DNA of 64,000 nt from Asanoa ishikariensis (GTDB taxonomy: Bacteria; Actinomycetota; Actinomycetes; Mycobacteriales; Micromonosporaceae), in the NCBI RefSeq assembly GCF_900107455.1, contig NZ_FNQB01000002.1:1054001-1118000 (forward strand). Direction: 5' to 3'. This document shows positions 15,345 to 48,438 of the stretch, in pieces. Numbering within the stretch: the stretch's first letter is position 1; each line of letters opens with the position of its first letter. The position numbers and the translations under genes were made by a program. A model generated the notes under the pieces. That model saw only the letters and a list, made by a program, of their open reading frames with translations, was not told where the DNA came from and ran no database searches.

Positions 15345-15412
15345 GCTGGCAAGCGACGCGTCAGCGAGCGATCCCCGGCGGGAGCGACGGTCGCGCCCAC
15401 GGCGAACCCGGG
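15345..15412 (+). repeat. Dispersed intergenic repeat, copy A
   Basis: One of seven related copies of about 70 bp in this window. The shared core reads CCCCGGCGGGAGCGACGGTC, preceded by a run of GCG/AGCG words and followed by an ACCCGGG end. This copy lies 138 bases before ffh. No hairpin strong enough to be a terminator was seen in it. Confidence 0.8.
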
Positions 15413-15549
15413 CAATGTGTTTGCTGGTGTTCTTGGTTGTCGGTCACCCGGCCGTTGGTGGATCGGCCGGAGCGGGCTGAGCCGGATACCCTAACGAGGG
15501 CTCTCATGGCCTGCTTCGCCCACAGAACTATGACAAACGGGATGTTTAC

Positions 15550-17112
15550 GTGTTCGACACCCTGAGCGACCGCCTCAACGGGATCTTCACCAAGCTCCGT
15601 GGCAAGGGGCGGCTGACCGATGCTGACATCGACGCTACGGCGCGCGAGATCCGGTTGGCGCTGCTCGAGGCCGATGTAGCGCTGCCGGTGGTTCGTGGCT
15701 TCATCGCCCGGATCAAGGAGCGGGCGCGTGGGTCCGAGGTCTCCCAGGCGCTGAACCCGGCGCAGCAGGTCATCAAGATCGTGCACGAAGAGCTGGTCAA
15801 CGTGCTGGGTGGCGACACCCGGCGGTTGCAGCTCGCCAAGCAGCCGCCCTCCGTGATCATGCTCGCCGGTCTCCAGGGTTCCGGTAAGACGACGCTCGCC
15901 GGCAAGCTGGCGCGCTTCCTGGCGGGGCAGGGGCACCAGCCGCTGCTGGTCGCGGCCGACCTTCAGCGGCCCAACGCGGTCACGCAGCTTCAGGTGCTCG
16001 GCGAGCGGGCCGGTGTCGAGGTGTTCGCGCCCGAGCCGGGCAACGGGGTGGGCGACCCCGTCGACGTGGCGCGGGCGTCGATCGAGCACGCCAAGCGGGT
16101 GGCGCGTGACATCGTCATCGTCGACACTGCCGGCCGGCTGGGCATCGACGCCGAGATGATGGCGCAGGCCGCCAACATCCGCGACGCGGTCGACCCCGAC
16201 GAGGTGCTGTTCGTCATCGACGCGATGGTCGGCCAGGACGCGGTCAACACCGCCGAGGCCTTCCGTGACGGCGTCGGCATCACCGGCGTCGTGCTGTCCA
16301 AGCTGGACGGTGACGCCCGTGGTGGTGCGGCGCTGTCGGTGCGCGAGGTGACCGGGCAGCCGATCCTGTTCGCGTCCACGGGCGAGAAGCTCGAAGACTT
16401 CGACATCTTCCACCCCGACCGGATGGCGAGCCGCATCCTCGGGATGGGCGACGTGCTCACGCTGATCGAGCAGGCCGAGCAGGCCTTCGACGCCGATCAG
16501 AAAGAGAAGATGACCGCCAAGCTCATGGGCGGTGAGCAGTTCACGCTCGAGGACTTCCTCGACCAGATGGTGGCGATGCGGCGGATGGGCCCGATCGCCA
16601 ACGTCCTGGCGATGATGCCCGGCATGGGCCAGGTCAAGGACCAGTTGGCCGACCTCGACGACAAGCACTTCGACCGTGTCACCGCGATCATCCGGTCGAT
16701 GACCCCCAACGAGCGGGTCAACCCGAAGATCATCAATGGCTCGCGCCGGGCGCGGATCGCGAACGGCTCCGGCGTCACGGTGATGGACGTGAACCAACTG
16801 CTCAACCGCTTCGTCGAGGCGCAGAAGATGATGAAGCAGATGGGCGGGATGATGGGCCTGCCGGGCTCCCGCCGCAAGGCCACGAAGAGCCCGAAGAACA
16901 AGCGCAAGGGCACGAAGGGCGGCTCGCGTCCCCGTCCGGTCGGCGGCGCCGGCATGCCTGGCGGGTTCCCGGGTGGGATGCCGGGCGGGATGCCGGCCGG
17001 CTTCGACCCGTCGGCGTTGTCGGGCGACGGCGCGCAGGGGCTGCCGCCGGGCTTCAAGCTGCCGAAGATCGACTTCAACAAGCTCCGCCGCCAGGAGGGC
17101 AACGAGAAGTAG
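15550..17112 (+). CDS. ffh: Signal recognition particle protein Ffh (SRP54)
   Basis: A 520-residue SRP GTPase. The N domain fills residues 1-90. The G domain has GLQGSGKTT near residue 107, DTAGRLG near 191 and SKLDGDARGG near 250. The Met-rich M domain (about 325-435, with AMMPGMGQ and KMMKQMGGMMG) binds signal sequences and 4.5S RNA. The C-terminal 85 residues add a basic Lys/Arg stretch and a Gly-Met-Pro run (GGFPGGMPGGMP), longer than in most bacteria but usual in actinobacteria. GTG 15550 follows CGGGA. Partner of FtsY at 3881. The SRP RNA gene was not found. Confidence 0.97.
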   Translation: MFDTLSDRLNGIFTKLRGKGRLTDADIDATAREIRLALLEADVALPVVRGFIARIKERARGSEVSQALNPAQQVIKIVHEELVNVLGGDTRRLQLAKQPPSVIMLAGLQGSGKTTLAGKLARFLAGQGHQPLLVAADLQRPNAVTQLQVLGERAGVEVFAPEPGNGVGDPVDVARASIEHAKRVARDIVIVDTAGRLGIDAEMMAQAANIRDAVDPDEVLFVIDAMVGQDAVNTAEAFRDGVGITGVVLSKLDGDARGGAALSVREVTGQPILFASTGEKLEDFDIFHPDRMASRILGMGDVLTLIEQAEQAFDADQKEKMTAKLMGGEQFTLEDFLDQMVAMRRMGPIANVLAMMPGMGQVKDQLADLDDKHFDRVTAIIRSMTPNERVNPKIINGSRRARIANGSGVTVMDVNQLLNRFVEAQKMMKQMGGMMGLPGSRRKATKSPKNKRKGTKGGSRPRPVGGAGMPGGFPGGMPGGMPAGFDPSALSGDGAQGLPPGFKLPKIDFNKLRRQEGNEK

Positions 17113-17182
17113 GCATGTTCCGGGACAGCGGGCGATCTTAGGAGCACTTAGCGTCATGGGCGACTACTCAGAGGAGGAGCCC

Positions 17183-17773
17183 ATGACCGCGGCACCGACC
17201 CTGCCCGAGCGGCAGGAGTGGACGGTCGACGACCTCGGCGAACTGCCCGGGGACCTCCGCTACGAACTGATCAACGGAAGGTTGATCGTGGCGTCGCCCA
17301 CCCACCCCCATCAGGACCTTTGCGTCCGCATCCTGCTCGCCCTCGAGGCCAACTGTCCGGAAGACCAGTACTACGTCAGCCTGGACACCTCGCTGCGGAT
17401 TGATCGACGCAGCGAGCCACGTCCGGACATCGCCGTGATCGTTCCCGATCACAACACGACCAGCCCCATCCCGATCGAAGACGCGATCCTCGCCATCGAG
17501 GTGATCTCACCCGATTCGACCTTCCGCGATCTCTACGACAAGGTCCGCCTATACGGCCGCGCCGGCGTACAACGCTATTGGGTGGTCGACCCGCAGCACG
17601 ACGACATCACGTTGTCCGAGTTCACGCTGTCGGCGAGCGGTGAGCTGGTGCCGTCAGCGCACACCGCGGAGGTCTTCACCACCGAGTGGCCGTGGAAGGT
17701 CACCATCGACCTACCGGCGCTCACTCAGCGGTGGAAGGCGAAGGTCGCGCGCGACGTGCGCAATCGCGGCTAG
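17183..17773 (+). CDS. Uma2-family PD-(D/E)XK nuclease-like protein
   Basis: A 196-residue protein of the Uma2 family (DUF820), common in cyanobacteria and actinobacteria. The fold's acidic and Lys residues are visible in EPRPDIAVIV (about residues 77-86), LAIEVISPDS (about 101-110) and the Lys of YDKVRLYGRAG (about 116). The closing RYWVVDP segment is also typical. ATG 17183 was preferred because GAGGAGGAG lies just upstream; an in-frame ATG is at 17156. The family's role is unsettled, with nuclease activity inferred from the fold. Confidence 0.87.
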   Translation: MTAAPTLPERQEWTVDDLGELPGDLRYELINGRLIVASPTHPHQDLCVRILLALEANCPEDQYYVSLDTSLRIDRRSEPRPDIAVIVPDHNTTSPIPIEDAILAIEVISPDSTFRDLYDKVRLYGRAGVQRYWVVDPQHDDITLSEFTLSASGELVPSAHTAEVFTTEWPWKVTIDLPALTQRWKAKVARDVRNRG

Positions 17774-17824
17774 AGCCCGTCGATCGGCGGTGCCAATGTC
17801 ATACGGCGCGCTTAGGATCGCCGG

Positions 17825-18253
17825 GTGGCATACGAGTTTCAGGTGACCGTCGACTGCGCGGAGCCGCATGTGTTGGCTGACTGGTGGGCCGACGCGCTCG
17901 GGTGGGACGTCGAGGCGCAGGACGAGGCATTCATCCGCCGCATGGTCGAGCAGGGGCACGCCACCGAGGACGAGACCGCCCGGCACAACGGTGCGCTGGT
18001 GTGGAAGAGCGGCGCGGCGATCCGGCACCCCGAAGGGCTCGAGCGCGCGCCACGCCTGCTCTTCCAGCAGGTGCCCGAGCCCAAGACGGTGAAGAACCGG
18101 GTGCACCTCGACGTCCGCACCGGCGACGACCGCGACGCCGTAGTGGCCCGGCTGATCAGCAAGGGTGCCACGCACCTGCACGACGGGCGGCAGGGTCCGC
18201 AGAGCTGGGTGACGCTCGCCGACCCGGAAGGCAACGAGCTGTGCGTGAGCTGA
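17825..18253 (+). CDS. VOC/glyoxalase-like domain protein
   Basis: A 142-residue protein of the vicinal-oxygen-chelate superfamily, Glyoxalase_6 type. Two beta-alpha-beta-beta-beta modules are visible: the first from YEFQVTVDCAEP with WWADALGW, the second from KNRVHLDVRTGD to the closing LADPEGNELCV. Possible metal ligands are the His of RVHLDV and the Glu of EGNELCV. The GTG start is inferred from the family N-terminus. Its last 13 bases overlap the next gene. No substrate can be assigned. Confidence 0.85.
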   Translation: MAYEFQVTVDCAEPHVLADWWADALGWDVEAQDEAFIRRMVEQGHATEDETARHNGALVWKSGAAIRHPEGLERAPRLLFQQVPEPKTVKNRVHLDVRTGDDRDAVVARLISKGATHLHDGRQGPQSWVTLADPEGNELCVS

Positions 18254-19332
18254 CGCCGCTGCACGTCCGCGGGGTGGTGCTTCCCGACGACACCACCCGC
18301 GATCTCTGGCTGGTCGGCGACCGGGTCACGTTCGAGCCCGTGGCCGGCGCCGAGACGATCAGCGACGGCGGTTTCGTGCTGCCGGGCCTGGTCGACGCGC
18401 ACTGCCACATCGGCATCGCGGCCGGCGGCGCGGCGATCTCCACCGTGGAGCAGGCGCTCGCCGCCGCCGTGATCGACCGCGACGCCGGCACGCTGGCGAT
18501 CCGCGACGCGGGCTCGCCGTTCCCCTACCCGGAGCTCGACGACCACCCCGACGCGCCGCGGCTGTCCCGGGCGGGCCGGCACCTGGCCGCGCCGAAGACC
18601 CACCTGAAGGGGATTCCGGTCGAGTGCTCGCCGGAGGAGCTACCCGCGGCCGCGGCCGAGCAGGCCCGGGCCGGCAACGGCTGGGTCAAGCTCGTCGGTG
18701 ACTGGCTGGACCGCTCGCTGGCCGACCTTGGCCCGACGTTCGAGCCCGAGGTGCTGGCCGCCGCCATCGACGCCGCGCACGCGGCCGGTGCGCGGGTGGC
18801 GGTGCACACGTTCAGCGAGACAGCGGTGTCCACATTGGTGCGCGCCGGGGTGGACTCGGTCGAGCACGGCACGGGCCTGTCCCTCGACAACGTCGACGAG
18901 ATGGCGCGACGCGGCACGGTGCTGGTGCCGACAATGATCAATATCGAGACCTTCGACGACATCGCGGCGCGGGCGCAGGAGAAGTTCCCTGGATACGCGG
19001 CCCACATGCGCGACCTGCACGCCCGCTTCCCTGAGGTGGTCCGCGCGGCTCACGAGGCCGGCGTCCCGATCCGCGTCGGCACCGACGCCGGTGGCGCCAT
19101 CCCGCACGGCGTCTGCGCCGACGAGATGCTGATGCTGCACGAGCGGGCCGGCATGTCGGCGATCGACGTCCTGGCCGCCGCTTCGTGGGAGGCCCGCGAC
19201 TGGCTCGGCTTCCCCGGGCTGGTCGAGGGCGGCCTGGCCGACCTGGTCGTCTATGACGCCGACCCGCGCGCGGACCTACGGGTGGTCCGCGACCCGCGCC
19301 GGATCGTCCTACGGGGTCGCGTCATCCGTTAG
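18241..19332 (+). CDS. Amidohydrolase, metal-dependent
   Basis: A 363-residue amidohydrolase of the imidazolonepropionase/prolidase-like group. Metal motifs are VDAHCHIG (His-x-His, about 45-52), the possibly carboxylated Lys in VKLVGDW near residue 151, the His of VAVHTFSE near 186 and of VEHGTG near 206, and the Asp of GTDAGGAIPHG near 279. The C-terminal segment DLVVYDADP returns to the small beta domain. GTG 18241 was chosen because it gives the family N-terminus and overlaps the preceding stop by 13 bases. The substrate is not known. Confidence 0.9.
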   Translation: MRELTPLHVRGVVLPDDTTRDLWLVGDRVTFEPVAGAETISDGGFVLPGLVDAHCHIGIAAGGAAISTVEQALAAAVIDRDAGTLAIRDAGSPFPYPELDDHPDAPRLSRAGRHLAAPKTHLKGIPVECSPEELPAAAAEQARAGNGWVKLVGDWLDRSLADLGPTFEPEVLAAAIDAAHAAGARVAVHTFSETAVSTLVRAGVDSVEHGTGLSLDNVDEMARRGTVLVPTMINIETFDDIAARAQEKFPGYAAHMRDLHARFPEVVRAAHEAGVPIRVGTDAGGAIPHGVCADEMLMLHERAGMSAIDVLAAASWEARDWLGFPGLVEGGLADLVVYDADPRADLRVVRDPRRIVLRGRVIR

Positions 19333-19496
19333 GCGGGAGGCGGTTTCAAGCAGCGTCCGGGCGCCGAGCATGGGACACCCGCGGTCGTGGGACTCGCCCT
19401 GCCTATTGACGCCGGTCGGCGTGACCTCGACGCAGATCACGGCGCCGACCCGACCTGGCATCGGTCGGTTGACGCGGGACCGGCTCGGGATGGGCG

Positions 19497-19886
19497 CTAG
19501 GTGGTGTCGGCTTGTTCGGCGAAGACCGCCAGGGCCGTCTGGTAGGAGTCGAAGGCTCGGGCGGCGCCCGCGTACGCCTCCAGGTGGATGAATAGCTCGA
19601 CGATCTCGGCCTTGGTCACCCCGCTGCCCAGGGCGATCCGCACCTGGCCGCGCAGCGGCTCGTGGGTGCCCAACGTGGCCGCGATCGTCACGGAGATCAA
19701 CGCGCGGGTGCGGTCGTCCAGGCCCGGCCGGCTCCAGGAGTCACCGAACGTGTGCTCGGTCGCCAACCGTCGGAACTCGGCGCCCGTGGCTGGTTCCCCG
19801 GGGCCGAGCGGCAGGTTCAGCGGCTGGCCGAGTAGCCGCTCCGCGGTGTCCAAAGCCTGCCGGTGAGCATCAGGTGTCGTCATCAA
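19497..19886 (-). CDS. Carboxymuconolactone decarboxylase-family protein
   Basis: A 129-residue all-helical protein similar to gamma-carboxymuconolactone decarboxylase (PcaC type). Recognisable segments are the catalytic-loop region WSRPGLDDRTRALISVTI (about 51-68) and the closing HLEAYAGAARAFDSYQTA (about 100-117). It lacks the CxxC of AhpD peroxidases, so a redox role is unlikely. No other aromatic-catabolism genes are nearby. It is convergent with the amidohydrolase across a 164-base gap in which nothing was recognised. Confidence 0.88.
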   Translation of the reverse strand: MMTTPDAHRQALDTAERLLGQPLNLPLGPGEPATGAEFRRLATEHTFGDSWSRPGLDDRTRALISVTIAATLGTHEPLRGQVRIALGSGVTKAEIVELFIHLEAYAGAARAFDSYQTALAVFAEQADTT

Positions 19887-19958
19887 GGCTCAGCGTAAGT
19901 CGCCGAACACTGCATTTCGCCCAAAAGGCCCGGCCCAGGGCGGCCCGTCGCTGGCGCG

Positions 19959-20024
19959 TTTGCTCTGCACCCATCTACGCACCACCCCGTGCGGAAGGTG
20001 GTGCGTATATGGGTGCAGAGCAAA
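19959..20024 (+). repeat. Long near-perfect inverted repeat (28-bp arms)
   Basis: The left arm (19959-19986, starting TTTGCTCTGCACCCAT) and the right arm (19997-20024, ending ATGGGTGCAGAGCAAA) pair over 28 bases with one mismatch around a 10-base loop. It sits 73 bases from the start of the minus-strand gene at 19886 and 195 bases before proS. No T-tract follows on either strand, so it is not a standard terminator. It could be a miniature mobile-element relic, a structured RNA or a protein site. Confidence 0.85.
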
Positions 20025-20043
20025 GCCTGCGATTTTGGCCTAC

Positions 20044-20126
20044 CGCGGACCTGGCAGGGCCGGCCCCTTGTGGGGCCGCCCGGTGCGCGCGGGAGCGAGC
20101 GGTCGTGCCCACGACGGACGCGCGCA
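20044..20126 (+). repeat. Dispersed intergenic repeat, copy B (variant 2)
   Basis: This copy carries the GGTGCGCGCGGGAGCGAGCG variant of the core, shared with copy F at 45361, and starts with CGCGGACCTGGCAG. A GC-rich insert (GGGCCGGCCCCTTGTGGGGC) interrupts its left half. It lies 94 bases before proS. Together with the inverted repeat just upstream it fills most of the 333-base gap between the divergent genes. Confidence 0.75.
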
Positions 20127-20219
20127 CATGACTTGGATCCGCTCAGGTCAGATGATCAAGTCGGCGTACCCGCATTCCGGTCGCGATGATCAAAGACCCC
20201 CTCGCTAGGATTCTCGGTT

Positions 20220-21626
20220 ATGGCTCGCGTGCTTACTCCCCGTGCGGAGGACTTTCCCCGCTGGTACCAGGATCTGATCGCCAAGGCCCAGCTTGCCGAC
20301 AACGGCCCGGTGCGCGGCACGATGGTGATCCGACCGGCCGGGTACTCGATCTGGGAGCGCATGCAGGCCGAGATGGATGCGCGGATCAAGATCGCGGGTG
20401 CGGAGAACGCGTACTTCCCGCTGTTCATCCCCGAGAGCTACCTCAAGCGCGAGGCCCAGCACGTCGAGGGCTTCTCGCCCGAGCTCGCCGTCGTCACCCA
20501 CGGTGGTGGCAAGCAGCTCTCCGAGCCGGTCGTCGTGCGGCCGACCAGCGAGACCGTTATCGGCGAGTTCATGGCCAAGTGGGTGGACTCCTACCGCGAC
20601 CTGCCCCTGCTGCTCAACCAGTGGGCCAACGTCGTGCGCTGGGAGCTCCGGCCCCGGATCTTCCTGCGGACCAGCGAGTTCCTCTGGCAGGAGGGCCACA
20701 CCGCGCACGCCACCGAGGAGGACGCGCGCAGCTACGCGCGCAAGATCCTGCACGAGGTGTACGAGGACTTCATGGTCGGCGTGCTCGGCATCCCGGTGGT
20801 GGTCGGGCGCAAGACCAACCGGGAGCGGTTCGCGGGCGCGACCAGCACCTACACGCTCGAGGGCATGATGGGCGACGGCAAGGCGCTGCAGATGGGCACC
20901 TCGCACGAGCTCGGCCAGAACTTCGCCAAGGCGTTCGACATCAGCTACTCCGCGGCCAGCGGCGGGGTTGAGCACGCCTGGACGACCTCCTGGGGCACGT
21001 CGACCCGGATGATCGGCGGGCTGATCATGAGTCACGGCGACGACAACGGCCTGCGGGTGCCGCCGCGACTGGCGCCGATCCAGGCGTACGTGATGGTCGT
21101 CAAGGACGGTGACGGCGTGACCGCCGCGGCGCACAAGCTGCGCGACGCGCTCCGGGACGCCGGCGTGCGGGTCGGGCTCGATGACCGGGTCGACACGGCG
21201 TTCGGGCGGCGGGCGGTCGACGCCGAGCTCAAGGGCTACCCGGTGCGGATCGAGGTCGGGCCGCGTGACCTGGCGGCCGGCAACGCCGTCGTGGCGCGGC
21301 GGTACGACGGCAGCAAGACCCCCGTGCCCGTGGCCGACGTGGTTGGTCGCGTGCTCGCGGTGCTCGAGGAGGACCAGCAGAGGCTGCACGACGAGGCGCT
21401 GGCGTTCCGTGAGTCGCACACCGTCGAGGTGTCGAACCTGGCCGACGCGATCGCGGCGACGGCGACCGGCTGGGCCCGGGTGCCGTGGTCGGCGATCGGC
21501 GTCGACGGTGAGGCACAGGCCAACGGCCAGGGCGTGACCGTGCGCTGCCTGGTCCGCGCCGACGGCTCCGTGCCCGGCTCGCAGGAAGAGCCGGAGCTGG
21601 TCGCCATCCTCGGCCGCTCCTACTGA
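20220..21626 (+). CDS. proS: Prolyl-tRNA synthetase, short (type 3/archaeal-like) form
   Basis: A 468-residue class II aminoacyl-tRNA synthetase that charges tRNA-Pro. The motif 2 region is RTSEFLWQEGHTAHA (about residues 158-172), motif 3 is GLRVPPRLAP near residue 277, and the ATP/proline pocket includes VVRPTSETVIG near 106. It lacks the editing insertion found in the long bacterial type and matches the short type that has spread among actinobacteria and other bacteria. ATG 20220 gives the family start. Its stop overlaps the next ATG by one base. Confidence 0.96.
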   Translation: MARVLTPRAEDFPRWYQDLIAKAQLADNGPVRGTMVIRPAGYSIWERMQAEMDARIKIAGAENAYFPLFIPESYLKREAQHVEGFSPELAVVTHGGGKQLSEPVVVRPTSETVIGEFMAKWVDSYRDLPLLLNQWANVVRWELRPRIFLRTSEFLWQEGHTAHATEEDARSYARKILHEVYEDFMVGVLGIPVVVGRKTNRERFAGATSTYTLEGMMGDGKALQMGTSHELGQNFAKAFDISYSAASGGVEHAWTTSWGTSTRMIGGLIMSHGDDNGLRVPPRLAPIQAYVMVVKDGDGVTAAAHKLRDALRDAGVRVGLDDRVDTAFGRRAVDAELKGYPVRIEVGPRDLAAGNAVVARRYDGSKTPVPVADVVGRVLAVLEEDQQRLHDEALAFRESHTVEVSNLADAIAATATGWARVPWSAIGVDGEAQANGQGVTVRCLVRADGSVPGSQEEPELVAILGRSY

Positions 21627-22276: not shown

Positions 22277-22314
22277 GCCCCGCAGGCGGGGGTGCGGCTC
22301 GTAGGCTGCTGATC

Positions 22315-22962: not shown

Positions 22963-22990
22963 CCGGTTTTGTAGTGACCGCGACCAGTGG

Positions 22991-23063
22991 CGAAGCTGGC
23001 AAGCGGAGCGCAGCGGAGCGATCCCCGGCGGGAGCGACGGTCGCGCCGACGGCGGACCCGGGA
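22991..23063 (+). repeat. Dispersed intergenic repeat, copy C
   Basis: Contains the core CCCCGGCGGGAGCGACGGTC and the closing GACCCGGGA. It lies 192 bases before rpsP, in a 292-base gap that must also hold the promoter of the rpsP operon. Confidence 0.8.
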
Positions 23064-23254
23064 CACGGAATTTCATCTCTTCTGACCCGGCGTGGGCATT
23101 CGTAGACCGTCTGGCAGAATGGGTTGTTGGTATCCGGCATGTGTTCGGCGCCCTCTACCCCGAATGCGTTGCCAGTCCACGAACGGTCCTCGGCTCAAAC
23201 CCCACTGCGTCGGCCGACCGATCACCCACGTATCGCAACAGGAGCGAACAGACT

Positions 23255-23782: not shown

Positions 23783-23783
23783 C

Positions 23784-25998: not shown

Positions 25999-26964
25999 AT
26001 GAAGGCAGTGGTGGCGAGCGGGTACGGGCCGCCGGAGTCGCTTTCGGTCGCCGAGGTTCTGGTGCCGGTGGCCGGGCGTGGGCAGATCCAGGTGCGGATC
26101 GCGGCCGCCTCGATCAATCCGGCCGATGTGCGGCTGCCGAGCGGCGACTTTCGTGACGCCGTGCCGTTGGAGTTCCCGCACGTGCCGGGGAACGACTTCG
26201 CGGGGACGGTGAGTGCGGTCGGTGCTGGGGTTACGGGGTTCGTCGTGGGCGACGAGATCTTCGGCCAGGCGGTGCCGCGGGCGCTGCGAGCGATGGCGGG
26301 TCAGGCGCGGCCGTCGCTGAGCACGGGATCGTTGGCGGAGTACGCGGTTTTCGAGGCGGATACGCCGTTTCTCGCCCATCGGCCCTCGGGTCTGGGCGTG
26401 GCGGAGGCGGCCGCGCTGCCGACGGTCGGTCTGACCGCGCGGGCGTTGCTCGCGACGGCGTTGATCAGGCCGGGGGAGCGGGTGCTGGTCGTCGGAGCCA
26501 CCGGTGGCGTGGGAACGGCGGTGGTGCCGCTGCTCTTTGCCGCCGGCGCACAGGTGATCGCGACCGCGACCGCCGTGGACGCGGACCTGCTGCGGGCACT
26601 CGGTGCGGCCGAGGTGATCGGCTACTCGGACTATCCGTCGGGGGTCGACGTGGTGATCAACGCGGTACTGCCGAGCGACGAGCTCGGTCCGGTGGCGAGG
26701 TCGCTGCGACCCGGGGGACGGCTGTTGACGATCACCTACCCGGTGCCGGAGCGGGCTTGGCTCGGCCGGGACGACGTCGACCTGCACTTCGTGCTGGACA
26801 TGGACGGTCGGCTGGGCGGGATGCGCGAGGTGGCCGAGGCGGCGGTGAGCGGCGAACTGCCAGCCACGATCGGCCGCCGCTACACCCTGGCCGAAGGCCC
26901 GCAGGCATGCGTCGACTTCGCGCGCCTACACACAACCGGCAAGCTGGTCGTATCGGTTGCTTGA
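25999..26964 (+). CDS. Zinc-type alcohol dehydrogenase/quinone oxidoreductase
   Basis: A 321-residue MDR-superfamily NADPH-dependent oxidoreductase of the quinone reductase type. The N-terminal GroES-like domain contains the segment PHVPGNDFAGTVSAVG (about 56-71); the Rossmann motif VVGATGGVGTAV is near residue 165. No zinc-binding Cys cluster is present, as in quinone reductases. ATG 25999 was chosen over two in-frame GTG codons just before it. Probably induced by a reactive electrophile or quinone through the TetR protein. The stop codon lies inside the first unit of the tandem array downstream. Confidence 0.9.
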   Translation: MKAVVASGYGPPESLSVAEVLVPVAGRGQIQVRIAAASINPADVRLPSGDFRDAVPLEFPHVPGNDFAGTVSAVGAGVTGFVVGDEIFGQAVPRALRAMAGQARPSLSTGSLAEYAVFEADTPFLAHRPSGLGVAEAAALPTVGLTARALLATALIRPGERVLVVGATGGVGTAVVPLLFAAGAQVIATATAVDADLLRALGAAEVIGYSDYPSGVDVVINAVLPSDELGPVARSLRPGGRLLTITYPVPERAWLGRDDVDLHFVLDMDGRLGGMREVAEAAVSGELPATIGRRYTLAEGPQACVDFARLHTTGKLVVSVA

Positions 26965-27535
26965 CGGGCCAGGCCGGCTGCGGCCTGGGTGTCCGCCTCT
27001 GAGAGGCGGCGCTGGCGCCGCCAGCGGCCGGTTGTGTCAGTTGATTGACGGGCGGGGTCGGCTGCGGTCTTGGCGTCCGCCTCCGGGAGGCGGCGCTGGC
27101 GCCGCCGGCGGCCGGTTGTGTCAGTTGACCTGATGGCCTGCCGGCCGCGGGCCCGGGCGTCCGCCTTGAGGGGCAGCGCTGCCGCCGCCGGCAGGCTGGT
27201 TGTGGTCTGTTGCCTGATGGCCGGCCGCTGTCCTGGGCGTCCGCCTTAAGGGGCCGCACTCCCGCCGCCGGCAGGCTGGTTGTGTCAGTTGCCTGATGGC
27301 CGGCGGCGGACCTGGGTGCCCGCCTCTGGGAGAGCGGCGCTGCTGCCGCCGGCAGGCAGATGGCAGGCTAGTTGCGTCAATCGCCTGCGGGGCCGACCGT
27401 CCGCGGACCTGGGTGCCCGCCGCCGCGGAGCGGCCTTGCCGCCGCCGGCAGGTTGGTTGTGTCAATTGCTTGATGGCCGGCCGGCTGCGGGCCGAGGCGA
27501 CACGCTCTGAGAAACGCCGTTGCTGCCGCGGCGGC
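26957..27535 (+). repeat. Tandem array of about 84-bp units, seven copies
   Basis: Units start at about 26957, 27041, 27125, 27210, 27289, 27380 and 27466. Each starts with a TTG-(C/A)-TTGACGGG-like word, has a GTCCGCCT segment, a GGCGGCG-rich block and ends GGTTGTGTCA. The first unit covers the last two codons and stop of the gene at 25999. Conserved spacing, overall GC richness and possible hairpins within units resemble mycobacterial interspersed repetitive units. No gene was accepted in this 1003-base gap. Confidence 0.85.
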
Positions 27536-27540: not shown

Positions 27541-27588
27541 GATCTAGGTAATTCGTTGCTGCTCCAGCAGGAACGAAATACCTAGATC
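27541..27588 (+). repeat. 48-bp palindrome
   Basis: The arms begin GATCTAGGTA and end TACCTAGATC and pair over 23 bases with two mismatches and almost no loop. It immediately follows the 84-bp array. It could act as a bidirectional terminator, a protein site or the trace of a mobile element. No T-tract follows. Confidence 0.85.
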
Positions 27589-27603
27589 TCGAACGCCCGA
27601 CCC

Positions 27604-27679
27604 ACCGCGGACCTGGCAGCGCAGCGGAGCGGAGCGGTCCCGGCGGGAGCAACGGTCGTGCCTCCGGCGGGCCCGGGAC
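27604..27679 (+). repeat. Dispersed intergenic repeat, copy D
   Basis: Contains CGCGGACCTGGCAGCG, a run of AGCG words, and the core with one change (GGAGCAACGGTC). It ends GGGCCCGGGAC, which is also the start of the 49-bp tandem repeat that follows. It lies 288 bases before rplS. Confidence 0.8.
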
Positions 27680-27819
27680 ATCTGCTCGATATTGATCTTG
27701 CATCTGCGGTCGCCGACGGGCCCGGGACGTCGCGTTGCATTGATCTTGGATCTGCGGTCTCCCTGGCTGACCCGGGACATCCGCTTGGTATTGATCTTGT
27801 TCGTGGGGTGATTTCCGGT
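27672..27819 (+). repeat. 49-50 bp tandem repeat, three units
   Basis: CCCGGGAC recurs at 27672, 27721 and 27771, and ATTGATCTTG follows each at 27691, 27739 and 27790. The units are about 75 percent identical. The rest of the gap up to rplS must contain the promoter, but no clear -35/-10 pair was assigned. Confidence 0.75.
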
Positions 27820-31384: not shown

Positions 31385-31457
31385 CGCGGACCTGGCAGCG
31401 CAGCGAAGCGGAGCGGTCCCCGGCGGGAGCGACGGTCAGGACCACCGCGAACCCGGG
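31385..31457 (+). repeat. Dispersed intergenic repeat, copy E
   Basis: Reads GCGGACCTGGCAGCGCAGCG at its left end, then the CCCCGGCGGGAGCGACGGTC core and the ACCCGGG end. It starts 32 bases after rnhB. A short frame through it (31360-31548) ends in a hydrophobic stretch but is not accepted as a gene. Confidence 0.8.
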
Positions 31458-41455: not shown

Positions 41456-41462
41456 GCTGGTC

Positions 41463-41490
41463 CCGGGTCCGCCCCACCGGGCGGGCCCGG
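41463..41490 (+). terminator. GC-rich hairpin between rpsB and tsf
   Basis: A 12-bp stem starting CCGGGTCCGCCC pairs with GGGCGGGCCCGG across a 4-base loop, one wobble pair. No T-tract. It may lower tsf transcription relative to rpsB or protect the mRNA end. Confidence 0.5.
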
Positions 41491-41527
41491 CCACCACGAC
41501 CCCCACTAACCATCAAAAGAGAGAGTC

Positions 41528-42364: not shown

Positions 42365-42373
42365 CCGGCTGCC

Positions 42374-42424
42374 GCGCCCCCGTCCTTCGGGCGGGGGCGC
42401 GCCACCGGCCGGGGCGCCGGTGGC
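42374..42424 (+). terminator. Two consecutive hairpins after tsf
   Basis: First stem GCGCCCCCGTCC/GGGCGGGGGCGC (42374-42400, 3-base loop, one wobble), then GCCACCGGC/GCCGGTGGC (42401-42424, 6-base loop). No T-tract follows. They start 10 bases after the tsf stop, so most rpsB-tsf transcription probably ends or pauses here. Confidence 0.65.
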
Positions 42425-42448
42425 CCGCGTGGGCAATACGCTCCAGGC

Positions 42449-42517
42449 GGCACCGGATCGGTGCCGAAGCGACGCGCACCGGATCGGTGCCGGGAAGCGA
42501 TGCGCACCGACTGGTGC
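42449..42517 (+). promoter_or_regulatory. Triple palindrome upstream of pyrH
   Basis: Three copies of a palindromic word, GGCACCGGATCGGTGCC (42449), GCACCGGATCGGTGC (42476) and GCACCGACTGGTGC (42504), follow at 26-28 bases, each with a GAAGCGA-like spacer. The array ends 20 bases before pyrH. It could be a multi-site operator or a set of leader hairpins. Confidence 0.6.
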
Positions 42518-42536
42518 CGAGGCGAGAGGCGGTCGG

Positions 42537-43307
42537 ATGACGGACGTGGCAGGCGAGTCGACGCAGGTGGTCGAGGATCCCACCGCACCTCCTCCGGGCC
42601 GGCCCCGCCGGGTCGTACTCAAGCTCTCCGGTGAGGTCTTCGGCGGCGGCATGGTCGGTGTCGACCCCGACGTGGTGCAGGCCGTCGCCCGCCAGATCGC
42701 CTCCGTGGTCCGCCGCGGTGTCCAGGTCGCCGTCGTCGTCGGTGGTGGCAACTTCTTCCGGGGCGCCGAGCTGCAGAAGCGCGGCATGGACCGGGCCCGG
42801 GCCGACTACATGGGCATGCTCGGCACCGTCATGAACTGCCTGGCCCTCCAGGACTTCCTGGAGAAGGAGGGCATCGAGACCCGCGTGCAGAGCGCGATCA
42901 CGATGGCGCAGGTCGCCGAGCCCTACATCCCGCTGCGGGCGATCCGCCACCTGGAGAAGGGTCGCGTGGTCATCTTCGGCGCGGGCGCCGGGATGCCGTA
43001 CTTCTCCACTGACACCGTCGCCGCCCAGCGCGCGCTGGAGATCCGTGCAGACGTGGTGTTGATGAGCAAGAACGGCGTCGACGGGGTCTACACCGCCGAT
43101 CCGCGCACCGACCCGACGGCCAGCAAGTTCGACTCGGTCACGTTCGCCGAGGTGCTCCGGCGCGGGCTGCGGGTGGCCGACGCGGCCGCGTTCAGCCTCT
43201 GCGAGGAGAACGGCTTGCCGATGCTGGTGTTCGGCGCCGAGGGCGACGACACGATCATGAGGGCCGTCGCCGGCGAGCGCATCGGCACCTTGATCACAGC
43301 CAACTGA
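42537..43307 (+). CDS. pyrH: Uridylate kinase (UMP kinase)
   Basis: A 256-residue bacterial UMP kinase of the amino-acid-kinase fold, giving UDP in pyrimidine synthesis. It has [13 protein letters not shown] (about residues 24-36), [14 protein letters not shown] near 64 and the nucleotide region [11 protein letters not shown] near 155. The first 22 residues (up to RPRR) are an extra N-terminal stretch. ATG 42537 follows AGAGGCGG. The palindrome array upstream suggests separate control from tsf. Confidence 0.96.
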
Positions 43308-43338
43308 GCCACATCCCCAGAAGGAGGCGACGGACCCG

Positions 43339-43896
43339 GTGATCGACGACACACTCCTCGAGGCCGAGGAAAAGATGGATGGCGCGGTCAACCACGCCAA
43401 GGAGGAGTTCGCCGTGATCCGCACTGGGCGGGCCAACGCTGCGATGTTCTCCAAGATCGTCATCGAGTACTACGGCACCCCGACGCCGCTGACCCAGATG
43501 GCGTCCGTCGGCACGCCGGAGCCTCGGATGGCGATCATCAAGCCGTACGACAACTCGCAGCTCGGTGCCATCGAAAAGGCGATTCGCGACTCGGACCTCG
43601 GTGTCAACCCCAACAACGAGGGCACCCAGCTTCGCATCGTCCTCCCGCAGATGACCGAGGAGCGCCGCCGCGACATGATCAAGGTGGCGCGGCACAAGGC
43701 CGAGGAAGCCAAGATCGCGGTGCGCAACGTGCGGCGCAAGGCCAAGGAAGAGCTCGACCGCCTGGTGAAAGACGGCGAGACCGGGGAAGACGACGGTCGA
43801 CGGGGCGAGAAGGAGCTCGACGACCTGACCCACCGGTACGTCACCCAGATCGATGAACTCCTTAAGCACAAGGAAGCCGAGCTGCTCGAGGTCTGA
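43339..43896 (+). CDS. frr: Ribosome recycling factor
   Basis: A 185-residue factor that splits ribosomes after termination together with EF-G. Family marks are [15 protein letters not shown] (about 26-40), [16 protein letters not shown] (about 66-81) and the closing [20 protein letters not shown] lies 12 bases before GTG 43339, slightly far. 31 bases separate it from pyrH. Confidence 0.97.
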
Positions 43897-44012
43897 GTCG
43901 GAGGGCCGCGCAGGTGCAGTAGGCTCGGCACGATTCCTCCTGGTCAGGAGATCGATGGGCGAAGGGGGCTCGGCGACATGAGACGTTCGACGGCGGGCTC
44001 GATTGCGGCGTG

Positions 44013-45161
44013 ATGTCCTACTCCGACCCCTATTCGAGCGCTGATCCGCCTCGGGCGCGACACTCCGGTGTCGCGCCCGAGAAGTACGACCCAGGGTTCC
44101 CGGCCAACCTCGATGTCCCGGGTTGGGCCGGCCCCACGCAGCCCGGCATCGGGCTGCCGGAGCCGGACCCGCGCCGGGAGCCGGAGGTCAACGGCTACAC
44201 GGCCGAGACGACCCAGCTCCCTCTGGTCACGCCGCGCGCCCAGCACCAGCCCGGCGACGACGATGCCGACGAGGACGCGACGCCGCCGCGGCGCCCCGGC
44301 CCCGGCAGGCGTCGCGCCGGCCCCGGGCGGCCGCCGACCGTCCAGAAGACCAGTCGCGCCGGCCGCAACCTGCCCGCCGCGATCGGTGTCGGGCTCACCC
44401 TCGGCGCGGTCCTGCTCGTCTCGCTGTACGCGTACAAGCCGGCCTTCCTCGGTGTTCTCGCGGTGGCCGTCGCGGTCGGCATCTGGGAGGTCAGCCGCGC
44501 GACCCGCGAGGTCAAGGCCAACCCACCGACGATCCCGTTGATCGCGGGCGGGGTGTTGATGGTCGGCCTGGCCTGGTACGCCGGTGCCGACGCCCTCATG
44601 CTCGGCCTGGTGGCGACCCTGCTCGCGGCGACCGTGTGGCGGCTCGCCGACGGGCCGAAGGGCTTCAAACGGGACCTGACCGCGTCCGTGCTGATCGCGG
44701 TCTACGTGCCGTTCCTCGCCGGGTTCGCCGCGCTGCTCGCGGTGCCGCAGGACGGCGCCGACCGGGTGCTGGTCGTGCTGATCGGCGTCGTCCTCTCCGA
44801 CACGGGCGGTTACGCGGCCGGTGTCTTCCTGGGCCGCCATCCGATGGCGCCGACCGTGAGCCCGAAGAAGTCGTGGGAGGGCTTCGGTGGCTCGCTCGTC
44901 GCCGCGGCCATCGGCACTGCCCTGAGCTGTTACTTCCTGCTCGGAGTCGACTTCTGGTGGGGCGCGTTGATCGGTGCCGCGATCAGTGTCGCGGCGGTCC
45001 TCGGCGACCTCGGCGAGTCGATGCTCAAGCGCGACCTGGGCATCAAGGACATGAGCCGGCTGCTCCCGGGCCACGGCGGCCTGATGGACCGCCTCGACTC
45101 CATCCTGTTCGCGGTGCCGACCGCCTACCTGCTGCTTGCGATCTTCGCCCCGGTGCGCTGA
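44013..45161 (+). CDS. cdsA: Phosphatidate cytidylyltransferase
   Basis: A 382-residue enzyme that makes CDP-diacylglycerol from phosphatidate and CTP. Residues 1-115 are hydrophilic, Pro/Arg/Asp-rich and disordered; about eight membrane segments follow. The signature SMLKRDLGIKDMSRLLPGHGG with MDRLD after it lies near residues 337-362, and LSDTGGYAAGVFLGR near 261. ATG 44013 or GTG 44010 could be the start. The 116-base gap after frr holds no clear signal. Confidence 0.95.
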   Translation: MSYSDPYSSADPPRARHSGVAPEKYDPGFPANLDVPGWAGPTQPGIGLPEPDPRREPEVNGYTAETTQLPLVTPRAQHQPGDDDADEDATPPRRPGPGRRRAGPGRPPTVQKTSRAGRNLPAAIGVGLTLGAVLLVSLYAYKPAFLGVLAVAVAVGIWEVSRATREVKANPPTIPLIAGGVLMVGLAWYAGADALMLGLVATLLAATVWRLADGPKGFKRDLTASVLIAVYVPFLAGFAALLAVPQDGADRVLVVLIGVVLSDTGGYAAGVFLGRHPMAPTVSPKKSWEGFGGSLVAAAIGTALSCYFLLGVDFWWGALIGAAISVAAVLGDLGESMLKRDLGIKDMSRLLPGHGGLMDRLDSILFAVPTAYLLLAIFAPVR

Positions 45162-45522
45162 CCCTCGGGTCCGGCGGTGGGTGGGGAAAGCGACGTTTCG
45201 GAAATCACTTCATGTGAGCCGGCGTACGCGGATCGGAGCGTTCGCGGCGCGGTCCCGACGGTCCCTGGGGGCATTTGATCGGCTTGAGGCCGCGCATCAC
45301 CTTCCCGTACTTTCGGTGGTGCCTAGCGGGATGCGGGCGCAAATGTGGGCTTTTGGCGGCGCGCGGACCCGGCAGCGAAGCGCAGCGAGCGGTGCGCGCG
45401 GGAGCGAGCGGTCGTGCCCACGACGCACGTGCGTCGATGAATTGACGTTTGATCTTCTTATTTCCGTCCCGGCGCCCGGGCAGGTGAAGGTGATCGAACA
45501 GCCGTGGGAGACTTGAGCCGCC
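45162..45522 (+). other. 361-base gap between cdsA and rlmN
   Basis: No gene was accepted. It holds copy F of the dispersed repeat (45361-45433), followed by an AT-richer stretch (TTGACGTTTGATCTTCTTAT) that may include promoter elements of rlmN. Confidence 0.5.
45361..45433 (+). repeat. Dispersed intergenic repeat, copy F (variant 2)
   Basis: Carries the same GGTGCGCGCGGGAGCGAGCG core variant as copy B, followed by GTCGTGCCCACGACG, and is preceded by TTTTGGC as in copy B. It lies 90 bases before rlmN. Confidence 0.8.
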
Positions 45523-46641
45523 ATGACGAGCCTGCCCATTATTCAGTCGGCCGCCACCGCCGGGCGGCGGCCGGCGATGCCGCCGCGCCATCTTGCCGAT
45601 CTCGACATATCGGGGCGTGAGGCCGCGTTGGTCGCGCTCGGTGAGCCCAAGTTCCGTGCGCGGCAGTTGTCCACGCACTACTTCGGCCGGCTGGAACGCG
45701 ACCCCGAGGCGATGACCGACCTGCCCGCGGCGACGCGCGCGAAGATCGCGGACGACCTGCTGCCGCAGTTGCTGACGCCGGTACGCGAGATGGCCACCGA
45801 CGACGGCGCCACCCGCAAGGCGTTGTGGCGGCTACACGACGGCTCGCTCGTCGAGAGCGTGCTGATGGGCTATCCGGATCGCGTCACCGTCTGCATCTCC
45901 AGCCAGGCCGGCTGCGGCATGGCGTGTCCGTTCTGCGCGACCGGCCAGGCGGGGCTGACCCGCAACCTGTCCACCGCCGAGATCGTCGACCAGGCGGTCT
46001 ACCTCGCGGGCGTCGCGGCTTCGGGTGTGATCGCCGGTTCGCCGTCGCGGCTCTCGCACGTGGTGTTCATGGGCATGGGCGAGCCGCTGGCCAACTACAA
46101 CCGGGTCGTGGCCGCCGTCCGGCGCCTGACCTCGCCGGCGCCCGAGGGGCTCGGGCTCTCGCAGCGACACATCACGATCTCGACGGTCGGCCTGGTGCCG
46201 GCGATGCGCAAGCTTGCCGACGAAGACCTACAAGTGACTCTTGCGTTGTCGCTGCACGCGCCCGATGATGATCTGCGCGATGAACTGGTGCCGGTCAACC
46301 AACGGTGGAAGGTGGCCGAGGTGCTCGACGCCGCGTGGCATTACGCGGATCGCACGGGGCGCCGTGTTTCCGTCGAATACGCGATGATCAAAGACGTGAA
46401 CGACCAGCCGTGGCGAGCTGATCTGCTCGGACGTCTGCTGGCCGGGCGGCAGACGCACGTCAACCTCATCCCGCTGAACCCGACTCCGGGCAGCAAGTGG
46501 GATGCGAGTGCCAAGCCGGTCGAACGCGAGTTCGTCCGGAGGCTGCGCGCGGCGGGCGTGTCGACTACCGTGCGTGACACCAGGGGTCGCGAAATCGACG
46601 GCGCGTGCGGCCAGCTCGCCGCGTCCGAGGTGACGACATGA
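45523..46641 (+). CDS. rlmN: 23S rRNA/tRNA m2A methyltransferase RlmN
   Basis: A 372-residue radical-SAM enzyme that methylates A2503 of 23S rRNA and A37 of some tRNAs. The cluster motif CGMACPFC is near residues 130-137; [15 protein letters not shown] near 243 is typical; a C-terminal Cys lies in DGACGQL near residue 363. The N-terminal helical domain (1-100) is complete. 43 bases separate it from the DivIVA-like gene. Confidence 0.96.
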
Positions 46642-46684
46642 CCGCGTTCGGGGCCGCGGCCGAGCGAACTAACCAGGAGACATA

Positions 46685-47866
46685 GTGGCGAGCCAGGGTC
46701 AACGATTCCGCCGTCGGGCACTGCGTCGCGGCTACAAGGTCGACGAGGTCGACGCCTTCCTGGACCGCGTCGAGGCGACCCTCGCCGGCGATCCGGTCGG
46801 CCAGCCGGTCGGGGCGCAGGAAGTCCACGACATCGTCTTCCGGGTCCGGTTCGGCGGGTACGACGAATGGCAGGTCGACCTGCACCTCGACCGCGTCGAG
46901 CGGCAGGTCGGCGAGCTCGAGGAGCGCAACGGGCGCTCCGGGGGCCCCGACCGGATGGGCCTGCCGGACCGGATGGGCCCTCCCGGCCAGTTCGGCCCGC
47001 CGCCCGGTGATCGGATGGGACCGGGGGACCGGATGGGTCCGCCGATCCCGGCGCCGCCGCCGGGCTCCTTCGGCCCGCCGCCGGACCGTCGTGCCGCGGC
47101 GATGGGCGGCAACCCGCTGCCGACCCGGCCGACCCCCAACGACGACCCCTACGCGCGCCCCGGCCCGCCGCCGCCTTACGGCTCCGGGTTCGATGGCCCG
47201 CGTGGGTACGACGGCCCTGGTCAGCAGGGTGCCGGACCGCTGCCTCCGGGCGCCGGCCAGGGCGCGCCCCCGATGCGGGGTGGCGGCTTCCCGCCGCAGG
47301 ACGACGGCTACGACGGCCCGGAGCAGCCCGGTCGCCGCGGCCGGATGGACATGACAGCCGAGATCCGCATGCCGGAGCGCGGTGACCCGGGCCGTGGTGG
47401 TCCGGTGCACCCGGGCGGCGGCGGTCCCGGCATGGGTGGCGGTCCCGGCATGGGTGGCGGCCCCGGCATGGGCGGTGGCCCGGGCATGGGCGGTGGCCCC
47501 GGCATGGGCGGTGGCGCACCCGGCATGGGTGGCCCCGGCCTCGCGATGGGTGGCGCGCCCGGTGGTGGCATGGGTGCCCCCGGCATGGGTGGCCCGCCGC
47601 TGATGGGCCCGCCCGGCAGCGATCTCGCACGGGTCGACTCGATGCGGCGGTCGTTCCAGGTGCGCCGGTTCGGCAGCGGCTACGACCCGATGCAGGTCGA
47701 CCGCTTCTTCGAGGACGTGCTGACGGGCATGACCGGCCGCGGCCCGATCCCGACCACCGACGCGGACTTCGACGCGGGCCAGTTCGGGCTGGTGCCCGGG
47801 GGCTACTTCGAGGCCGAGGTCGAGCAGGCCCTGCTGGAGATCCGCGACATCGTTCGTCGGCGCTGA
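46685..47866 (+). CDS. DivIVA-domain protein with Gly-Met repeats
   Basis: A 393-residue protein. Two N-terminal DivIVA-type motifs, RRGYKVDEVDAFLDRVEATL (about 14-33) and GYDEWQVDLHLDRVERQV (about 58-75), are joined to a third near the C-terminus, GSGYDPMQVDRFFEDVL (about 330-346). Between them lie Met-Gly-Pro-rich repeats, including six units of GPGMGG or near it (nt 47421-47540). No coiled coil as long as in Wag31/DivIVA is visible, so it is a member of the short DivIVA-like family. A membrane-associated, polar or septal role is inference. A terminator follows. Confidence 0.85.
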   Translation: MASQGQRFRRRALRRGYKVDEVDAFLDRVEATLAGDPVGQPVGAQEVHDIVFRVRFGGYDEWQVDLHLDRVERQVGELEERNGRSGGPDRMGLPDRMGPPGQFGPPPGDRMGPGDRMGPPIPAPPPGSFGPPPDRRAAAMGGNPLPTRPTPNDDPYARPGPPPPYGSGFDGPRGYDGPGQQGAGPLPPGAGQGAPPMRGGGFPPQDDGYDGPEQPGRRGRMDMTAEIRMPERGDPGRGGPVHPGGGGPGMGGGPGMGGGPGMGGGPGMGGGPGMGGGAPGMGGPGLAMGGAPGGGMGAPGMGGPPLMGPPGSDLARVDSMRRSFQVRRFGSGYDPMQVDRFFEDVLTGMTGRGPIPTTDADFDAGQFGLVPGGYFEAEVEQALLEIRDIVRRR

Positions 47867-47884
47867 GCCTTCAGTCGTTTCGCT

Positions 47885-47930
47885 GTCCCGCCCGCTGGTC
47901 TTTTCTGACCGGTGGGCGGGACTGTTTTGT
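47885..47930 (+). terminator. Rho-independent terminator
   Basis: Stem GTCCCGCCCGCTGGTC/GACCGGTGGGCGGGAC with two imperfect pairs and a 6-base loop, followed by TGTTTTGT. It starts 19 bases after the DivIVA-like gene. This is among the clearest intrinsic terminators in the window. Confidence 0.85.
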
Positions 47931-48207
47931 AGGCGGCTCGTCCGGCTGGCGGTCGGAGCGTTTTGATCGACCTCGCGGAACTTGAGCGCAGGCCACTGCC
48001 CGGGGTGCCGCGCTTGTTTCCTGTCGGCTGCCTCGCCGATGGCCGGGAGCTGGAGTCGCGCGCCGGCGGACCACGCCGACGGCACGGCCGTCGGACTCGG
48101 GGTCGGCATCGGCATCGGGGATACGGGCGACGAGGCGCTTGGCGGTCGTCGCGGTGCTCCGCTGGCGGGAGATGTCCGCATTCCAAGCTGCTGGAGCGAA
48201 CGGGTGA
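47931..48207 (+). other. Gap of about 280 bases after the terminator
   Basis: No gene was accepted. Open frames on both strands here have atypical composition and no ribosome site. The amidohydrolase remnant follows directly, so the stretch may be decayed coding sequence. Confidence 0.4.
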
Positions 48208-48357
48208 GATCTGCGAGTTGCCGCCGGTGACACGATCCCGCCGTTCGTGCCGGCAGCCCGCGACCACATCCTGGCCTGCCACGCACACGGCACCCAGGGC
48301 GGTTTCCACGCGATCGGCGACGCGGCGCCGCCCGACGTCCTGGAGGGCCCGGGGTAG
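48208..48357 (+). pseudogene. Remnant of a YtcJ-like amidohydrolase
   Basis: A 49-codon frame between two stops (TGA at 48205, TAG at 48355) reads ...AGDTIPPFVPAARDHILACH, then GGFHAIGDAAPPDVLEG. The FHAIGDAA box with the preceding ACH-x(5)-GGF spacing is characteristic of the YtcJ amidohydrolase family, which normally has 500-550 residues. No start and no other part of the gene was found nearby. It is judged a degraded fragment. Confidence 0.6.
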
Positions 48358-48366
48358 TTCTTGTGC

Positions 48367-48438
48367 CGCGGGCCTGGCAGCGAAGCGGAGCGAGCGGTCT
48401 CCGGCGGGAGCGACGGTCGTGCCCACGACGAATCCGGG
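48367..48438 (+). repeat. Dispersed intergenic repeat, copy G
   Basis: Reads CGCGGGCCTGGCAGCGAAGC, then AGCGAGCGGTCTCCGGCGGG, AGCGACGGTCGTGCCCACGA and AATCCGGG. It follows the amidohydrolase remnant by 9 bases and precedes a tandem repeat. Unlike the others it faces a minus-strand gene. Confidence 0.8.

Follow-up and report, generated by a model that had tools for sequence, protein, structure and literature searches.

The window analysed here, a stretch of 64 000 nucleotides from Asanoa ishikariensis (NCBI RefSeq assembly GCF_900107455.1, contig NZ_FNQB01000002.1, positions 1,054,001 to 1,118,000), contains seven copies (A to G) of a short intergenic repeat and raises the question of what this repeat is attached to: the starts of the translation and signal recognition particle (SRP) genes before which an initial annotation had mostly placed it, or something else. 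Our study revealed a polar, two-module, hairpin-forming interspersed repeat that is mostly inherited and stands mainly at the ends of genes. All seven copies were present on the + strand by direct reading and alignment. A profile (R1), built from 50 copies of the own genome with the window's seven included, gave 11 matches in the window at E values up to 1, namely the seven copies (E 4e-23 to 4e-12) and four weak matches (E ≥0.048). Six of the seven do lie upstream of plus-strand genes, as had been noted, and protein profiles bore out the names given to the flanking genes (ffh, proS, S16, L19, DUF2469 and RlmN). Copies C and E also follow a gene, with its stop codon 21 and 29 bp away, and the genes around G converge.

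The special tie to translation and SRP genes, or to gene starts, did not survive when the family was examined beyond the window. Using gene calls from our own simple finder, 114 distinct copies were placed in stretches fetched from three Asanoa genomes; 2 lay inside called genes and 1 at an edge, which left 111 for classification (60 of 61 from the own genome, 27 of 27 and 24 of 26 from the stretches of G002 and G004, genomes with 67 hits each). The intergenic placement originally reported was upheld, 60 of the 61 fetched own copies lying between genes. These stretches were chosen around copies, some of the 111 are orthologous to one another and five form a single tandem array. By type of gap, 47 copies were convergent, 56 codirectional (25 with both genes opposing the element and 31 with both running along it) and 8 divergent. 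Background gaps of ≥90 bp, taken from 15 stretches of the window's region in six species, were distributed 25/97/34 in the same order (convergent versus divergent, p = 2e-6). Within the fetched stretches, gaps of ≥90 bp with an element were distributed 44/50/8, compared to 16/103/59 without one (p = 9e-13), although the latter adjoin element gaps and are a biased control. The copies of the window are atypical of the family, being mostly of the same/same or divergent type and in a ribosomal/SRP neighbourhood, and because the window falls in that neighbourhood the association with such genes is a local accident.

The relationship to stop codons is directional. The gene on the 3' side opposed the element in 72 of 111 copies, and its stop codon lay ≤25 bp from the profile end in 55 of these 72, compared to 12 of 78 same-strand genes on the 5' side (p = 2e-14). 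Where the stop was further off, an intervening hairpin was seen by eye in some copies, e.g. at loci L010, L018, L020, L023 and L030. Relatives of the element in genome G134 share this polarity: of the 49 copies there, 21 were fetched, and the 3'-side gene opposed 16 of them. A leader or promoter regulating translation and SRP genes in cis, which the six upstream copies of the window and the constant 74–80 bp between copy F and the called rlmN start would favour, is therefore very improbable, as those 72 copies face an opposing gene on the 3' side and conserved sequence resembling the ffh and rpsP promoters lies between element and gene. This reading is largely refuted for the family, and F alone could have been co-opted.

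The family is large and narrowly distributed. Profile R1 gave 81 hits in the own genome (9.09 Mb; Asanoa, family Micromonosporaceae), 67–100 in each of five other Asanoa genomes, 1–4 in 3 of 19 genomes from other genera of the family and none in 16 genomes from other families of the order, the cross-genome counts being lower bounds based on about 99 scored candidates per genome. A degenerate 17-nt core pattern, CGGCGNGAGCRACGGTC, matched the own genome 52 times and its reversed form not at all, which rules out chance independently of the profile. Since 33 of these matches were forward and 19 reverse, the single orientation first described holds within the window and not genome-wide. Across Micromonosporaceae the pattern was present in 46 of 150 genomes, with the reversed pattern occurring at most once per genome. 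It reached 34–64 copies in each of the six Asanoa genomes, which include the nearest named relatives by TrmD identity, A. hainanensis (G003; 95 %), A. siamensis (G005; 92 %) and A. iriomotensis (G001; 91 %). The maximum in genus g45 was 49, and Virgisporangium aliadipatigenens (G044) had 12. We infer genus g45 to be Actinoplanes/Paractinoplanes, because named loci from those genera share the same variant. In a class-wide sample the pattern occurred in 30 of 394 genomes; leaving aside the own genome and two family members, it occurred in 29 of 391 and never in more than 2 copies. The distinct core of copies B and F was restricted to the six Asanoa genomes and V. aliadipatigenens (7 of 150 Micromonosporaceae genomes). 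Copies are numerous, lie between genes and are oriented relative to stop codons, rather than few, randomly oriented or within genes.

Site sharing between G134 and the own genome amounted to one weak protein match (32 % identity) when 40 and 112 flanking proteins were compared. Some copies are multiplied locally, as in a five-unit array of period 81 in the own genome (G000:C4:1929928-1930268; L025) and an array of four right-module units of period ~60–70 in G004 (L274), which follows the ortholog of the L002 gene; such arrays are possible strain-typing markers. Our literature search, whose coverage left out most subscription papers, turned up no account of this repeat among the papers listed.

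The element measures ~70–110 bp and comprises a left hairpin with an exchangeable stem, a conserved right hairpin and a T-rich tail. On the + strand the order is CGCGGACC-TGGCA, the left hairpin arm, GGTC, the right module CYGGCGGGAGCRACGGTC...CCCGRG and the tail, with the right hairpin formed by CY(GG)CGGG...CCCGRG around a conserved GGGAGCRACGGTC. The left arm consists of AGCG words or a GC hairpin, and in G134 a quite different long hairpin occupies the same place. The AGCG words are GCGNAGC units, which are known as unusually stable DNA mini-hairpins. Right modules without a left half also exist, singly or in tandem. In the 89 of 111 copies whose tails could be parsed, T content was 40–55 % at six positions between +7 and +16, compared to 15 % in the intergenic background, and TTGAT was present in 30 of 89 tails compared to 2.7 % of background 45-mers.

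The shared words initially listed describe a real repeated family, but not each of its members: four of the seven (A, C, E and G) have the exact core CGGCGGGAGCGACGGTC, D departs from it by one change, and B and F have a different core; CGCGGACCTGGCAGCG is exact only in D and E (2 of 7); and ACCCGGG is present in A, C and E (3 of 7). The two subtypes are genuine. What was noted as an internal direct repeat, the GGAGCG words, is better understood as belonging to two distinct hairpin modules. As had been observed, terminal inverted repeats are lacking, the best inverted 10-mer between the consensus ends matching at 6 of 10 positions; in direct orientation, by contrast, the ends resemble each other (GCGGACCTGG / GCGGACCCGG, 9 of 10). 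In lacking inverted ends the element differs from a typical miniature inverted-repeat transposable element (MITE).

Both hairpins show compensatory change, visible as two covarying stems only with the larger copy set. Mutual information was calculated from 136 unique copies, 3 of them from other genera, with correction for column background. The top pair, columns 23-37, held CG 92, GC 22, TG 6 and TA 2 of 123, compared to 85 paired expected, part of this signal being the two arm types. The second, columns 45-80, held CG 108 and TA 14 of 133 (109 expected) and accounts for a TGG subtype, which in the first alignment always carried CCCGAG (or ACCGAG) in place of CCCGGG (7/7). In the B/F subtype both sides are altered (CGCGCG/CGYGCG). 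Left-stem pairing in 10 G134 copies was 95 %, compared to 86 % when 3' arms were swapped between copies (maximum of 300 swaps, 94 %), and in 25 other copies, 23 of them from Asanoa, it was 86 % compared to 72 % (maximum 79 %); 14 of 24 Actinoplanes-type and 32 of 132 other copies were unparsed in this test.

Such changes bear upon the possibility that the repeat is a protein-binding chromosome element serving topology at gene ends, its sequence rather than its transcript being read. Bacterial interspersed mosaic elements (BIMEs) are said to bind gyrase, IHF or Pol I. Conservation beyond structure (GGGAGCRACGGTC and TGGCA), the occurrence of copies in all gene contexts, divergent gaps included, and their greater density in the origin-proximal half of the chromosome (53 of 67 and 44 of 67 in two genomes) would suit this explanation. 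However, the compensatory changes in two hairpin stems and the tight spacing to stop codons would not, and the origin bias may merely follow core genes, so that we consider it decidedly improbable.

Comparison of orthologous sites revealed that most copies have stayed where they are. For 18 own genes ending at a copy, the corresponding ends were located in three relatives; the genes came from L001-L040 and L156-L161 (stop ≤30 bp away, gene >500 bp, score >50), so that occupancy in the relatives is conditional on an own copy. A same-orientation element followed the stop in 13 of 18 cases in A. hainanensis (one more being inverted), 10 of 17 in G002 and 12 of 18 in G004, a total of 35/53; a few matches counted as occupied lay 42–84 bp past the stop, and sites 1 and 8 of A. 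hainanensis were partial, cut by other sequence. Mean identity was 0.76 between orthologous elements (52 pairs), compared to 0.52 in the 80 bp beyond, 0.45 in unrelated flanks and 0.68 between non-orthologous elements, and the own element was closest to its ortholog in 18 of 32 comparisons, compared to ~1 in 12 by chance. Together, identity and occupancy indicate that copies are mostly inherited and kept. Within the window, site A was occupied in 6/6 Asanoa genomes, F and G in all five with coverage, D in four together with the cut copy of A. hainanensis, and C in three; the profile found B in two, G002 having a degenerate copy, and E in one. In the part of the alignments available, the element at site G aligns across species and neither flank does. 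The flank upstream of A and F is unalignable there, and the stretch just before ffh and rlmN aligns. At site C, 7 of 19 Actinoplanes/Paractinoplanes loci had a weaker relative (E 5e-5 to 0.011) at a matching distance from trmD, in 6 of the 7 just before a motif common to the window's rpsP upstream region. Many copies persist at the same genes in related species although the DNA around them has changed, and this suggests that some copies have a function, perhaps in ending transcription.

The ends at which relatives lack the element are also informative. Among 17 ends with a located stop and no same-orientation element, a perfect terminator hairpin was found at three: site 15 in A. hainanensis (with a T run) and in G004, and site 7 in G002, where the first arm of the hairpin matches the element tail of other species. 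Repeats of other kinds were noted right after stops at element-free ends at L265 and L271 (G002) and L252 (A. hainanensis), one of them a double hairpin rich in CGGGGC and another a long inverted repeat, GATCTCCGG...CCGGAGATC.

Retention has to be weighed against the alternative of a selfish, non-autonomous element resembling MITEs or repetitive extragenic palindromes (REPs), moved as folded single-stranded DNA and inserted with fixed polarity near terminators or stops, which would have no host function and for which gene ends would simply be tolerated sites. Its dispersal, its lineage-specific subfamilies and tandem arrays, and + strand hairpins with wobble pairs in every gene context are what such an element would leave, and known REPs occupy the same places (PMC3733652). 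However, the 35 of 53 occupied gene ends and the conservation of A, F and G argue otherwise, and no clean empty site or target duplication was seen when sites E, C, B and two others were compared across species, although the flanks there are too diverged. Nor is a mover evident: the REP-associated tyrosine transposase (RAYT)/IS200 domain Y1_Tnp (PF01797) was absent from 8 of 10 carrier genomes, with one partial match containing a stop in the own genome and four matches in G134, which agrees with the earlier impression that no transposase belongs to the element. Taking dnaA as the origin of a circular chromosome with the terminus opposite, neither of the two genomes examined showed a significant replication strand bias (40 of 67 copies, p = 0.14, in each), and pooling them gave 80 of 134 (p = 0.03). 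We regard the selfish explanation as possible but rather unlikely. Membership of the RAYT-mobilized REPs was rejected as a claim given that absence, and insertion into lagging-strand single-stranded DNA was rejected given the strand counts.

The repeat does appear to receive other mobile DNA. Three copies in A. hainanensis are cut at the core, at or near contig ends. In the counterpart of copy D (L061:10831-11161) the invader begins a reading frame that is 67–70 % identical over 27 residues to two plasmid transposases, one of them annotated as belonging to the insertion sequence (IS) family IS110, and the upstream DNA is also related; the 30-residue IS110-like fragment itself had no Pfam or NCBIfam match. 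The two other cut copies, at the ends of L238 and L245, are interrupted by a single end sequence, identical at 72 of 72 bases, which is probably the other end of the same IS110-like element. As these further copies are interrupted by one and the same sequence, the core of the repeat probably serves as the target site of this element, placed here only approximately, since its two junctions were read from different copies. REPs are established targets of IS110 elements (PMC11208160). For an antibiotic-rich family, the repeat also supplies markers and what is likely to be a natural target of an IS110-type element.

The reading we prefer, at about even chances, is that this is a modular small interspersed repeat of Micromonosporaceae, of REP/BOX type, retained as a terminator-like boundary at the 3' ends of genes. 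Once folded, the element would mark and seal the points where transcription units end. It would be a non-canonical terminator or boundary, probably effective in both directions, and would stop read-through and antisense transcription from passing between neighbouring genes. Selection for the boundary role would then keep it in place, after a long-ago spread as a non-autonomous repeat in which later inheritance and loss came to outweigh new gains. We infer a role in termination from position, interchange with terminators and retention. A more specific version, which we advance tentatively and consider rather doubtful, is a portable transcription-end element, conserved in sequence, free of a classical U-run, exchangeable with ordinary terminators, copied and then held by selection, with genus-specific interchangeable left hairpins and perhaps read at GGGAGCRACGGTC by a dedicated Micromonosporaceae termination or RNA-end factor.

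Several results weigh against a terminator-like boundary. The eight divergent copies (three of them orthologs of A) and the 31 same/same copies (five of them the tandem array) are a misfit to a pure gene-end role. No U-run directly follows either hairpin, the tail being T-rich only from ~7 nt past the stem and mixed; a plain terminator scan found the tail of F only among the seven copies, and its sites were no more numerous than in shuffles (7 versus 6.1; 4 versus 2.1). Folding energies of the seven copies were no better than those of shuffles (z -0.73 to 1.84), RNAalifold returned no covarying consensus from the first alignment and the outer left stem (GGRCC/GGTCY) lacked clear covariation. 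Hairpins beyond the element (15 of 41) were as common as after ordinary stops (0.36 of 121), so that some genes may have another terminator beyond it, and a comparison for displaced terminators gave 15 of 41 versus 9 of 41 (p = 0.22). At 12 of the 17 element-free ends neither a terminator hairpin nor another hairpin repeat was found (2 of 17 had another hairpin repeat); two of the 12 fold strongly, presumably for other reasons, and one carries the inverted element. Finally, wobble pairs favour folding of the + strand (GT 97 versus AC 19 over 13 column pairs; GT 70 versus AC 17 in the analysis by context), and the + strand is not the one transcribed from the closest opposing gene.

This preference was seen in every gene context and in the arms of G134 (19 GT versus 0 AC, 8 of the 19 from one pair). 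The 97:19 figure is a sum over column pairs taken as helices, with 74 of the 97 GT from two of them, and four other listed pairs that are mostly unpaired (24-36, 41-84, 42-83 and 43-82) would add 16 GT and 87 AC. It is therefore weak evidence, since related copies are not independent and the count depends on which columns are taken as helix. Pair quality by gene context gave no useful difference between RNA and DNA folding. Separately, an RNA leader or riboswitch was rejected as a candidate, with no Rfam match in the window at gathering thresholds, folds equal to shuffles and no covariation by RNAalifold.

How high-GC actinobacteria, which have few U-run terminators, end transcription and why REP/BOX-type repeats persist are both open questions. 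The polarity of the element towards stops and its retention where the flanks are lost make a direct test feasible, with numerous natural copies, subtypes and unoccupied sites to draw on.

The individual copies of the window, all on the + strand, differ in setting. Copy A (15340..15412) occupies a divergent gap upstream of ffh that is filled in every Asanoa genome. Copy B (20044..20127), upstream of proS, is of the B/F subtype with a GTGCGCGC...GCGCGCAC outer stem and the left arm of GC-hairpin form. Directly upstream of B, at 19959-20024, is a second intergenic palindrome (TTTGCTCTGCACCCAT...ATGGGTGCAGAGCAAA), one arm of which recurs exactly beside elements at L030:2356-2373 and L248:842-859. 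Copy C (22990..23062) lies between a DUF402 gene and rpsP, and its ortholog gap is filled in A. hainanensis and A. iriomotensis. The DUF402 gene is the second of a neighbouring pair (21626-22276/22339-22962) that has long direct repeats and looks duplicated, as does the pair 28531-29373/29370-30023.

Copy D (27606..27676) is upstream of rplS, and it is this copy whose A. hainanensis counterpart is cut by the IS110-like sequence. Two short partial relatives of the 3' part of the element lie downstream of it (27754-27789 and 27709-27737; E 0.1–0.2) and are perhaps decayed copies. A third palindrome family (AGATCTAGGTAAT...ATTACCTAGATCT), with both arms exact at L005, L010, L032 and L052 close upstream of a copy, appears in variant form upstream of D (~27550-27595), and the gap before rplS also holds imperfect tandem repeats of ~80–90 bp, distinct from the element, at 26943-27481. 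Copy E (31385..31457), ~30 bp past the RNase HII gene and before DUF2469, was found in the own species only, among five with coverage. Copy F (45362..45436) is upstream of rlmN and its subtype is kept at the site in 5/5 Asanoa genomes with coverage. A conserved open frame read by eye at approximately 45480-45523 (GTGAAGGTGATCGAACAG...) suggests that rlmN may start at an upstream GTG, nearer copy F than the called ATG. Copy G (48367..48438) is in the convergent gap between a DivIVA-domain gene and a small opposing gene without a Pfam match, and is likewise present in all five Asanoa genomes with coverage.

Among known systems, the element is close to REPs and BIMEs with GTAG or CGTC tags, which are intergenic, present in many copies, hairpin-forming and near the 3' ends of convergent or unidirectional genes (PMC3733652); convergent REPs are mostly within 20 bp of the 3' ends of both flanking genes in the same account. 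It too is a high-copy intergenic hairpin repeat near gene 3' ends. IS elements insert into REPs (PMC1525189 and PMC11208160), and here the IS110-like sequence lies in the core. Unlike REPs of 20–40 bp, the element has two dissimilar hairpin modules with polarity in 70–110 bp, a RAYT is absent in 8 of 10 carriers, and no consistent end tag was seen by eye in the 50-copy alignment. The mycobacterial interspersed repetitive unit (MIRU) of Mycobacterium tuberculosis is also a short intergenic actinobacterial repeat with some copies in tandem arrays, a likeness of description, but it lies mainly within operons over stop and start codons. Intrinsic (Rho-independent) terminators occupy the same place past the stop and are exchanged with the element between species at sites 7 and 15, but the element has no U-run directly after its hairpins and its sequence is conserved and repeated. 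In Streptococcus pneumoniae, BOX elements are modular with an optional or variable middle module and enriched between convergent genes, and SPRITEs lie near gene 3' ends, are convergent-enriched and have been proposed as co-opted terminators (PMC3049150). BOX has terminal inverted repeats and target duplications, neither of which was seen here, and SPRITEs, unlike the element, are AT-rich with a U-rich tract after the stem. The element belongs to a kind already known, that of gene-end repeats such as REP, BOX and SPRITE.

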